Under the pieces are notes generated by a model that had not been told where the DNA came from, searched no databases, and worked only from the letters and a program-made list of their open reading frames with translations. 64,000 nt of DNA from Lobosporangium transversale (Eukaryota > Mortierellomycota > Mortierellomycetes > Mortierellales > Mortierellaceae), in contig NW_019028984.1 in NCBI RefSeq assembly GCF_002105155.1, forward strand, positions 62,001 to 126,000, written 5' to 3'. Made by a program: the position numbers and the translations under genes. Shown piece after piece: positions 2,515 through 50,568 of this stretch (its first letter is position 1; the number at the start of each line of letters is the position of its first letter).

Positions 2515-4345
2515 TTAATAAGCACTCCCTATAAGAATATCATCCAGATATTGTTCCACAGCACCATTAGGGCGGGAGAGGGATGCTGTCGCATGTTGCG
2601 CAAATACTGACAATACGTTGTTCAGTTCCTTATTTCCAATGATGGGAATCGCAGCGAATGGTGTCTCATCAGGGAAAAGATTTAAGACTCTCGTGAATGA
2701 CAGCCTAAGATCAGTGGGCATGGTATTGGAGCACCCGAGCTTACAATCCGTGACTTCATGACGGCAAAGAACGGCTTGGTCCCCGTTTACTATCACATTT
2801 ATCGCGATTGATTGGAGGAGCTTACTAAACTGAAAAGCACTGCCTCGATCGGTCTGATCATAATCAACCAATGTGAAAACCGAATAAGGTATTGAGACAC
2901 TACTTTGCATCAACGGGCCCCAGGCGCGGCATTGATAGTAAGTGGAGGGATGATTAAAATACGTTCTCAGTTGTCTAAGCTGATGGGTTGCTTTGCCGAT
3001 GTGCGCACGCCTCGTAGTTTTGTCGTGCGCCATTGCAATAGCCATATTTAGAGACTCCTTGTCTACGAAGATCCTAGTTTCCTTGGTCCACTCGTCCTTG
3101 ATCTTAAATGTGCTGGTAGTTGCTCCAACAGAGTGTCGACTTTCACCCTTGAAATGAGCATCTAAACGAGTAGAGCAGGTCACCAATCCATCAAATACGG
3201 TTGTACCAATAATCAGCTTTGAACAACTATCCCCTGCCTTCGCCCAGAGTCGATGGCATGACACCAGGGTAATAAGCCTTTGAAGCATTAGGCAATGATC
3301 TTGGGGTCGGTGTACTATTGAAGACCTCTCGGTGAATGTCTGTGGTCCGGCCCCTTCCATAGACCTCAATCGAATGCACTAGGACCGCTTGGCCACTCTT
3401 CATGTTGAACACCAAGCAACAAGCCAATAACCGAGCACAAGCAAATCGATATTGGGGATTACACTGCCAATCCTCGTTCAAAAGGCTGCACATCTCATCT
3501 GACAGCTCTTCGAAATTACGGCCAAGCAAAACCTACCTGAAGGGCGACAACGAGATCATGCTGTCCAGCTTGAAGCATGTTGACAACTTTGATGTGGGTG
3601 GACAAGAACAATCTTTTTCTAGGAATGCGCTGGTGCTGCGATTAGGCACAAAGACACTTGAGTTGATCCCGGATCTGACAATGGGTTCGACCACATTGCG
3701 GTGCGCGAGGGCATTGAAAACCTGTTCTTCCTCATTAAAGAATGAAAATGGAGTCACTTTGAGGGACTCCACGCCTAACAACGCCGTTCTTTTCTTGGAC
3801 TCGCCTTTATGCTGCTTCTGGCAGGCCTGAAATATGGCTTCGTCGTACGATGGCAGCTCCATTTTGGATCGAGGACCAGAAGCCGGCGGCACACAGGACA
3901 TCGCTGGCAAATATGGTGTCAGTCCTAGGTCATGAATAGGGTCCTCCTCTTCGTTCGTATTTTCATTACTATCCACATCCTCACAGCCATACCGATCCTT
4001 GTCCCCATCATTCACTCCTTGTTCGCTCTTGTCAGCATCTTTGTATAGAAGACATACTGTGTGAATATGCCTCCGCATGCCCGATACTTTTAGATATGAA
4101 ACATTGCATGTCCCGCAACTGAAAGTTTGGCCATTTCGTCTCACTTCAACCATCTCGTTGTTGAGTTTGGTTCTAAACGAAGCTTGGTGGCATTGAAAGC
4201 GATGGTATTTGAGGGTGCCCTTAGTCCAAAAGCCCTCTGAACAATCCTGGCACTCCCAAGAGGGTTTGGTTTGGCTCGTCTTTTGTTTTTTGTTTACGGA
4301 TTTCGATGATGTTGCTTGATGACTCGTTTGATTTGATTCCTCCAT
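2515..4345 (-). pseudogene. C2H2 zinc-finger protein gene, broken by a stop and a frame change
   Basis: A minus-strand frame starting best at ATG 4345 (an upstream in-frame ATG lies at 4480) encodes an N-terminal Lys/Ser-rich stretch and two zinc fingers of the pattern C-x2-C-x12-H-x4-C/H (CQDC...H and CGTC...H), followed by an acidic Asp/Asn/Glu region. The frame meets a TAG at 3533-3535 and then continues in the same frame (VLLGRNFEELSDEM) to 3227. Coding resumes in another frame from about 3330 to 2515, with a globular-looking end (YLDDILIGSAY). The TAG sits in AG|GTAGGT, which resembles a splice donor, but I see no acceptor at a reasonable intron length. I read it as a decayed or partly spliced gene. 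Its place between two RecQ helicases suggests one mobile or subtelomeric module. I do not recognise the family with certainty. Confidence 0.6.
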
Positions 4346-5033
4346 TTTTATGAGTGAAGCCTTGTGATGAATGGGTAAAGAAAGTAAGAAAGAAAGCTGA
4401 GTGGATACAACAGGAAAAGAGTTGGCCTGTAAAACATGTCCACTTTTTGGCGAGGACTCTTCCATCTCGTTCACACGCACGCCCCCATTTTAAACATCAT
4501 GCAGGCTCAAATCTTTGTGATGTGGTTTGGTTTCACTGAATGGCCTGAAAAGAGGGGGTTGCCCTGAGAAATGGTTCGAGTCTCTCTCTCAAGGAACAGA
4601 CATGAACCTTCATGAGTTGTTGATGATGAGGATGAAAAATCTTGTCAGTCAAAGAATACCAACAAACCAAACCAACGAAGGCAACAATGCCAAGATGATC
4701 AACATTTAATTCGTTAATTTTGCTTAACATTCCAAACGATTTTAGTGAGTCGACCGCATGCTTTTGCGCCTCAACACTGCAGCTTCGTGAAGTGCGGGCA
4801 CATCAAGGGGAGAAATGCTTTTTTTTTTTTTTTTTTTTTTTCGACCAAAGGAGAAATACAGTTTTTTTTTTTTTTTTTTTTTTTGGTTTTTCACCGGGCA
4901 GTGGTGTGAAAGGAATTTCATTCATCGTTGTTGCATATTTCACAGTTCACGGGAAACAATAAAATTAAAATTAATAAATTAATATGTGTGTTCAAGAAAA
5001 AAGATAATGGAGTTTTTGTATACGAGATCTGTT

Positions 5034-47459: not shown

Positions 47460-47810
47460 TTAGTGCGACGTGTCCATATGACTATCTTGACGTTCCCAGA
47501 GTGGCTGGATAAAGGAAATACAGAAAAGAAGAGGAAAGAAAAAAAAAATTAGTTCCTATAGTCTGGATCAAGAAGTCAAGAAGTTAATCAGTAGCGCATA
47601 TAGCTAATCGAATAATACCTGAACATAAGCCAGGACATTCGGGGTCTCTTCCACTTTCAGTTTGTATCTTCCTCCACTGAGCCTGGCGGCATCCGAGACA
47701 AGCTTGGCATATATTTCCCTTATTGACATCTACAAACAAACAAATAGAAAAAGACGAAAATGGATTTTAGTAATATGTTTTCATTTTCACTATTCTTCTT
47801 TCAAAAGAGG

Positions 47811-47842
<32 letters not shown>

Positions 47843-49425
47843 TTCAAAAAGCTGATTTACATCTTTCTCTTGACCAATACTAGCCGTTGGGCGGTTAACA
47901 AAGAGTGTCTCTATCCAGCGACCCAGATTCATGAATGCTTCCCCAATAGGACCTGCCCTGCCTGATGAGGCCACAAGGCTAAAAGCCTCACTCAAGAAGC
48001 CGATCGCCTGCTCGTGAACTGAACTATCAAGCGCTGCAGCTGGTAAAAGGAATTCGTTCATGATCACTGTTTGCCATTTGCGGACCATCAAGAATCGAGT
48101 CAACAATGTTTGGCGGAGTAGCATCCCTAAAAAGGAGTAGAAGAATGACTGATAGGTCACATGAAGGCTGTCCAGAGTAACTGATTGGTAGTCATATGGC
48201 GAGTTTCGACGAAGGCTGTTGACAATGACCGGTAATGTTCTCGCAAGAGCATGAATGTCCTGATTCGCTAATTTACTAAGAATGTAATGACACAAAATCT
48301 AAAGAGTTGACAAATGTAAATTTTTTTTAAAAAAAAAAAAAAAAAATTAGGACGCTTTTTTTCCCCAACCCTCGATTCCCAAGGCCAGTCGGATCGTATC
48401 CCTTGCTTAAAGAGGAGAGGAGCATGAACCATTATTTACCTTCCGGGCTACTTCACTGTCATCCAGTGCCACAAGGTTATCTTCTGTGAATTCGACCTCT
48501 TCGTACTCCAGATTCTCGTCTACATCCTGTTTCAACATGCCTAGTGTATCATCGAGAATACAATTGGAAAGCGTAGTCATAAACTTTTCAGACACATTCG
48601 AGTCGACTTTTGGGATCCTAAACTTTTGATTTTGAATGATTCTCCTTGCATGCGCGCCAAGATTAAGCATTGTAGCTGTCCATGTAAGAGTAGAATCTGA
48701 CTGTGGGGCCCTTCCGTTTTGAGTTGCTTCATTCAGTAACGCCAGTAGTCGTGATGTGATCATATTGGAAGTGAATGGATCGTTCAAGATCATAGCAATA
48801 TCTCTATTGATAAATAGAAAAAAAAAAAAAAATAAAAACTATTAGGAACCATGAAGAAAAAAAAAAAAAAAAAAAAAAAGGAAAGAAGCATTGGGTTTTA
48901 ATTGATGATTTACCAAAGCAAAACGTCAAGCTACAAGCGTCACCTACCCATGTACTGGATCATCACGGTCAACTTTGTCAAAGAATTTACGAATGTTGTC
49001 CACACGTCTCTCATCCATGGACAATGTCCTGTTGCATGCATCCAGATTCCAAACAAGCTCATGACATGGATCGACTTTTGTAATCTAGAGAAAGTTTAAA
49101 GCGTGATGAATTGAAAGCGGACTTTTTTTCCCCCCTAGGATTATCGGTTTTTGCTAGAGCAGTAACGATCGATGTAGATTGATTGTAGATCAAATGTCGA
49201 CTTACAGATCCAAGGTTTGCCTCGTGCATTGCCATCAACAGATCAAAACGCAGGGTACAATAAACCGCCTCGTTTGTTTGAATGAAAAGTGATCGTAAAT
49301 ATGTTCCGATGTGATTGTACAGCTTTAGGTTCCCGCCCACAATATCCATCAATTGCTTTATACTTGGGTGGCTTCGTCTACAGAATCGCATTTATAAAAA
49401 TAGGAAGGAATTAGACTTTTCTTTT

Positions 49426-49466
<41 letters not shown>

Positions 49467-50233
49467 CTTTCCTTTCATCAGACTCTGGGGTTACCTTTGG
49501 TTAATAACTTTGGTTGGATGTTCAATGCTCATTTCTTTTGCTAAGTTAATGATCTCTGGGTCTGTTCTGTACGCTTTGACAATCGGAATGACATCGTCTC
49601 TGAATTTGTTGGGATTTGACAACCATATCCTGCGCTGCACTTCTGTTGGTGCAATCTATGCCCATAATTGAAGAAAGTAGGGGGAAAAGGAAAAGGAAAA
49701 AGAAAAAGCAGATGTATAGTCGATAGGATGAGCCAGTCTGTTGAACTAGTCCCTTACATTGCCACTATCCCATGGTTATATTGAGCATTTCGTTTTGACA
49801 AGTATAATGAGGGTGGCGTGACGGCATACTTTGAATAGCTCTTCATTTTCACCAATTTTGTCAATAATCTCCTTGGTCATCCTGTCTGGGAATCGTCCAA
49901 GTAGAGTCAATGGTAACTCCTGAAGCCCTTGAACGTCTATATATTGAAGCATTGATTCCAGTACAGAGTCAAACCTATTTGTGATGTTGAGAAGAAAGAG
50001 GTTAGAATAGAATAAAATAAAATAAATAAAATAAAAACAAGAAAAAGAAAAGAAAGTTAAGCGTGTTATGTTGAATTTCAATGTACCTAGCATTGTCCAT
50101 TGGGGCCGTCTCAAGCCTTTGTAACAACTTAGCCTTTAAAGCTCTCATGCAACTCGAATGAACTTCGTATCGGGTTTTGCCATGGTGATCAAGCAATGGG
50201 TAGATTGCACCGATATCTGGGAGTAATAGGTTT

Positions 50234-50268
<35 letters not shown>

Positions 50269-50568
50269 CGCGCAGCAGCAAGGTCATACGATATCTCATA
50301 GCATTTGCCCATGCGAGGCATTTATAAAGTGGATTAAATATATAGCATACGAAAATAAAATAAAATCAAACTTGGATATCCATATCCTGAGATCAAAATA
50401 ATAATAATAATAATAATAAAACATTTAAAGAGTATTATTGTTGTTGTAGTTGTTATGATTCAGGCCATTTCTTTCTTGAATTTGCCGGATAGCCATGCCA
50501 GGGTTTTGTTTGACAAGCATGTCACGGATCTTTTCGCCTGCGCGAGGTCCTAGTAGTCTTTGTTCCAT
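47460..50568 (-). CDS. Negative elongation factor B (NELF-B/COBRA1) homologue
   Basis: Ten exons: 50568-~50466, 50216-50087, 49974-49830, 49655-49495, 49377-49206, 49084-48948, 48803-48440, 48298-47861, 47729-47619 and 47504-47460, about 601 residues, close to the roughly 580 of the human protein. Residues follow animal NELF-B along most of the length: LLDHHGKTRYEVHSS, LPLTLLGRFPDRMTKEI, VQRRIWLSNPNKF, GGNLKLYNHIGTYLRSLF, VYCTLRFDLLMAMHEANLG, VDPCHELVWNLDAC, and DIAMILNDPFTSN. NELF holds RNA polymerase II in promoter-proximal pausing. It is absent from the well-studied yeasts. All introns are in frame with GT-AG ends except the first, where the best fit is a GC donor (AATG|GCCTGA) or an unseen alternative. 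Several introns carry runs of 15 to 33 A or T. Other NELF subunits are not in the window. Confidence 0.9.

Follow-up and report, generated by a model that had tools for sequence, protein, structure and literature searches.

The available text of PMC10591015 (2023) lists orthologues of NELFB and NELFC in Fungi and states that NELFA orthologues were not found there. The same text argues for a pausing-independent signalling role of NELFB and describes pausing as undocumented in single-cell organisms that hold NELFB and NELFC. According to the excerpted text of PMC4940160, NELF-A/C surface patches are partly conserved in Dictyostelium. Published accounts, in their accessible portions, describe the animal pause as having been built by NELF-A, and then NELF-E, joining an older NELF-B/C-D core. 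NELF-B in a fungus is thus already known, from PMC10591015 and from proteins named 'cofactor of BRCA1'. The suggestion of a preliminary description of this DNA, that some early-diverging fungi kept a pausing factor, holds in that one such fungus has more than one NELF subunit; the presence of NELF-B itself is not news. What is added here is a census of the subunits, NELF-A above all, in which our sequence-based assignment departs from the PMC10591015 statement on NELFA. A fungal NELF-A may be in print elsewhere, the literature searched consisting mostly of papers outside subscription.

The NELF-B gene in the window

The window analysed is a stretch of 64,000 nucleotides (C84:62001-126000) from Lobosporangium transversale (Mortierellomycota, Mortierellaceae), whose genome was searched in full (42.7 Mb, 127 contigs). 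A minus-strand gene at 50568..47460 joins ten exons in frame to 1806 bases, encoding 601 residues and ending with TAA. Its features, all on the minus strand, are as follows.

50457..50568, minus strand: exon 1, with the ATG at 50568 (AT-AC join; the GC-AG join would place its end at 50466); the N-terminus matches Mortierellaceae NELF-B
50223..50456, minus strand: intron 1, without a GT donor, AT...AC proposed (ATAACAAC...CCTATTAC) from the presence of GLNLPDI in 5 of 28 homologues
50087..50222, minus strand: exon 2 (start at 50216 with the GC-AG join)
49830..49974, minus strand: exon 3, GT-AG, in frame
49495..49655, minus strand: exon 4, GT-AG, in frame
49206..49377, minus strand: exon 5, COBRA1 domain
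48948..49084, minus strand: exon 6, containing VDPCHELVWNLDAC
48440..48803, minus strand: exon 7, containing DIAMILNDPF
47861..48298, minus strand: exon 8, C-terminal helical part, partly past the human sequence match and inside the fold match
47619..47729, minus strand: exon 9
47460..47504, minus strand: exon 10 and the stop TAA; the C-terminal PLWxxQ..MDTS is common to relatives

Against Pfam COBRA1 (PF06209), the 601-residue protein reaches 216 bits (E 9.4e-64, cut-off 22), and all six of its PDB matches at E<=1 are NELF-B, the best (1.3e-54) covering residues 6-432. Such a score, together with PDB matches that are NELF-B without exception, places the assignment far beyond chance and bears out the earlier identification of the gene as NELF-B, both motifs on which it had drawn (VDPCHELVWNLDAC and DIAMILNDPF) being present. 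The helical-repeat fold of NELF-B was also found, in a match that extends over nearly all of the chain of a close relative. Across the whole genome, the COBRA1 family gave matches at this locus only, in the form of three exon matches, and the NELF-B gene of L. transversale therefore appears to be single-copy.

A search of 5.8 billion proteins, in which 7997 candidates were scored, returned at least 28 relatives of the protein, a count that is a lower bound. All are fungal by name: 26 come from Mortierella-type genera, which we take to be members of the Mortierellaceae, one from Basidiobolus and one from Piptocephalis. Identity amounts to 59-89% within the Mortierellaceae (67-89% for full-length matches), 37% for Basidiobolus and 27% for Piptocephalis. 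The name 'cofactor of BRCA1' is already attached to 26 of the 28 relatives among the matches listed. None of these 28 matches is from Lobosporangium, and the window supplies one. Conservation in related fungi, on which the preliminary description had made its reading depend, is thus evident.

The preliminary description had also raised the concern that the contig might be animal contamination. We found no point in favour of contamination, or of a recent transfer from an animal, and give this explanation a negligible probability. The window sits within a contig of 994,324 bases, and the best homologues are Mortierellaceae proteins (67-89% where the match is full-length), human NELF-B being far more distant. 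Ten neighbouring ORFs in the window were scanned, of which eight have a Pfam family, including a fungal Zn2-Cys6 domain, a septin-like ORF and a GPI ethanolamine phosphate transferase. In addition, the assembly agrees with public L. transversale proteins: the NELF-A gene product described below matches one of them at 628 of 630 residues, and one of the RRM candidates (protein B) is identical to another over 541 residues. The NELF-B gene is fungal, and animal contamination is excluded.

Eight of the nine NELF-B introns have GT-AG boundaries, the exception being intron 1. No GT donor was found between the conserved end of the exon-1 coding sequence and the next in-frame stop, and the 601-residue model requires a GC...AG intron, cut after an exonic G, at this position. 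The alternative is an AT-AC intron of 234 nt (50456..50223), which yields 606 residues with ...QERNGLNLPDIGAIYP... in the protein. We propose AT...AC boundaries because this join restores the peptide GLNLPDI, shared by five homologues out of 28 (P0010, P0012, P0014, P0015 and P0021). The public models of three other relatives (P0002, P0003 and P0013) run into GLNH... at the intron 1 site, a misreading that would be expected if the GT donor were absent from their intron as well. Of the ten exons and 601 residues described earlier, the in-frame splicing and the intact TAA-terminated frame stand, while the length may have to be revised to the longer form. The missing GT donor, and the three public models that read into the same stretch, could be taken as signs of a decayed copy or of a faulty gene model built from chance exons. 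We consider this very improbable in view of the eight GT-AG introns, the open frame and the identity to relatives across nearly the full length.

Long runs of A or T are frequent in introns and between genes of this genome (in the window, for example, at 47820-47840, 49420-49460 and 50236-50265). Elsewhere in the window, an intron-poor minus-strand ORF at 6226-7863 matches the DEAD and Helicase_C families and, weakly, RecQ zinc-binding. Two further minus-strand ORFs, of 287 and 318 residues, lie at 2515-4489; the 287-residue ORF has no Pfam match, and the two may be fragments of a single disrupted gene.

NELF-C/D and NELF-A in the same genome

Two further subunit genes were assembled from other contigs.

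C38:669500-666532, minus strand: NELF-C/D gene (locus L010, C38:665500-670500), 11 exons with ten GT-AG introns
C34:637528-640030, plus strand: full-length NELF-A relative (locus L013, C34:633500-643400), six exons with five GT-AG introns, 630 residues

NELF-C/D is represented on its contig by six exon matches to PF04858. The assembled protein, of at least 568 residues with the 5' end of the gene unsettled, scores 373.7 bits against PF04858 and matches NELF-C/D in the PDB at E 3.1e-90.

For NELF-A, the genome search returned nothing at E<=0.001, the default threshold; at E<=10 it returned a single exon on contig C34, below the cut-off (E 0.0232, 19.3 bits). Assembly of the gene raised the score against NELF-A_N (PF23553) to 49.5 bits, with a cut-off of 27. 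The default search overlooked NELF-A because introns split the domain, and the rise of the score on assembly indicates that a single-exon search misses intron-split subunits.

The assembled protein matches human NELF-A in the PDB at E 8.5e-11, via N-terminal and C-terminal stretches; with a profile including 23 of 31 fungal homologues the value is 4.8e-20, and the C-terminal stretch alone gives 0.0014. When segments were compared with human NELF-A, none of 5000 shuffles was as good for the N-terminal and C-terminal segments, and one of 5000 for the middle segment, a match that is based on this one shuffle test. A Pfam scan of the protein up to E 10 did not list the hepatitis-delta-antigen-like (HDAg) family, the HDAg-like domain of NELF-A being taken here as defined in the available text of PMC11482795. 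The structure model is of poor quality (mean pLDDT 54.5), and a fold search with it gave a weak best match (E 8.4e-4), although the first three rows of that search are NELF-A chains. PF23553 is present in 28 of the 31 homologues, four of which bear the name 'Negative elongation factor A', showing that the fungal NELF-A gene is known to annotation pipelines.

At the level of sequence, one fungal genome thus encodes NELF-B, NELF-C/D and a relative of NELF-A, beside the DSIF subunit Spt5 (64.6 bits). A fungal NELF-A with the C-terminal segment suggests that the addition of NELF-A is older than stated; the step would date back to the common ancestor of fungi and animals or earlier, barring a transfer of NELF-A. 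This bears on the published account of stepwise assembly without settling the order.

NELF-E candidates and pause-release factors

Used as a genome query, the RRM and tail of human NELF-E had 15 matches at E<=1, headed by two paralogues (1.6e-7 and 1.7e-7).

C1:1831601-1833673, plus strand: RRM paralogue (locus L024)
C93:69502-67493, minus strand: RRM paralogue (locus L025)

The two proteins, of 563 and 541 residues, are 44% identical. In each, a short, basic, helix-like stretch at the N-terminus is combined with a tract rich in Arg and Ser, a single RRM and an end that is conserved (e.g., RQILRYDDL). In a PDB search with the assembled candidate, the highest NELF-E entry among 28 rows stands at row 20, and the candidate scores better with further RRM proteins, among them poly(A)-binding protein, PUF60 and TIA-1. 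Among at least 70 homologues, 'NELF-E' occurs in no displayed name and several are called 'RNA-binding protein 39'. Neither the N-terminal nor the tail profile matched NELF-E in the PDB, and in comparisons of the flanks with NELF-E 228 and 1732 of 5000 shuffles were as good, which amounts to no statistical signal. We have not filed the two paralogues as NELF-E, since generic RRMs outscore NELF-E and the flanks are without signal. The search for partner subunits that the preliminary description had proposed has yielded NELF-C/D and a NELF-A relative, with NELF-E not established.

Mortierella relatives conserve both paralogues, and the conservation extends partly to Umbelopsis. A bolder reading is that the NELF of Mortierellomycota is a complete set of four subunits, its NELF-A retaining the C-terminal region that faces Pol II and its NELF-E having diverged and been duplicated. 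The whole pausing machinery would then have existed before fungi and animals separated, and yeasts would have lost it later. We regard this as unlikely.

Searches for HEXIM and 7SK returned no match at E<=1 in the genome. The same searches were silent in all 14 control genomes, so that absence is not demonstrated, and the negatives should be weighed with the fact that intron-split genes escape a single-exon search. With neither HEXIM nor 7SK found, in searches that lack a positive control, release from any pause in Lobosporangium would probably be simpler than in animals.

Function and comparison with known systems

We consider it probable that the window encodes the single NELF-B orthologue of L. 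transversale, handed down from an ancestor shared by fungi and animals, and that it acts within a NELF complex that slows early Pol II as in animals. By analogy with the animal complex, NELF-B and NELF-C/D would form the core and NELF-A would attach through NELF-C. Together with DSIF, the complex would bind Pol II soon after initiation and slow early elongation, until a CDK9-type kinase ended its hold on Pol II. The presence of the genes is read directly from the DNA; that the complex assembles, binds Pol II and causes pausing is what the animal system would predict.

The fungal proteins could also be true orthologues whose main work is not pausing, but cytoplasmic signalling, or early termination and transcript quality control with other factors. 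This would fit the pausing-independent NELFB proposed in the available text of PMC10591015 and its remark on single-cell organisms, as well as the failure to find HEXIM and 7SK and to establish NELF-E. However, NELF-C/D, the NELF-A relative and Spt5 share the genome with NELF-B, and the silence of the HEXIM and 7SK searches in the controls deprives that part of the argument of its force. We think a principal role outside pausing unlikely, and favour a NELF complex that slows early Pol II.

Compared with known systems, the two fungal RRM paralogues resemble human NELF-E in layout, including the YDDL-type end, but score better with other RRM proteins and have flanks that gave no match to NELF-E. 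The GenBank entries named 'cofactor of BRCA1' from Mortierellaceae, Basidiobolus and Piptocephalis represent the same gene as Lobosporangium NELF-B, which differs from them in its unusual intron 1. With human NELF-B (COBRA1), the Lobosporangium protein shares a COBRA1 domain scoring above the cut-off, the sequence match noted above, and a fold match that covers nearly the entire chain, as computed on a close relative; it differs in that identity in the fold alignment is about 23-24% and the last third has no sequence match to the human protein. In the fungal NELF-A relative, the parts that match human NELF-A (the N-terminal domain, the middle stretch and, at the C-terminus, the segment EMNxxTGxW) are separated by a long helix rich in Glu, Lys and Arg and by linkers rich in Ser and Gly. 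Human NELF-C/D (TH1) finds its counterpart in the fungal protein by both the PF04858 score and the PDB match given above.
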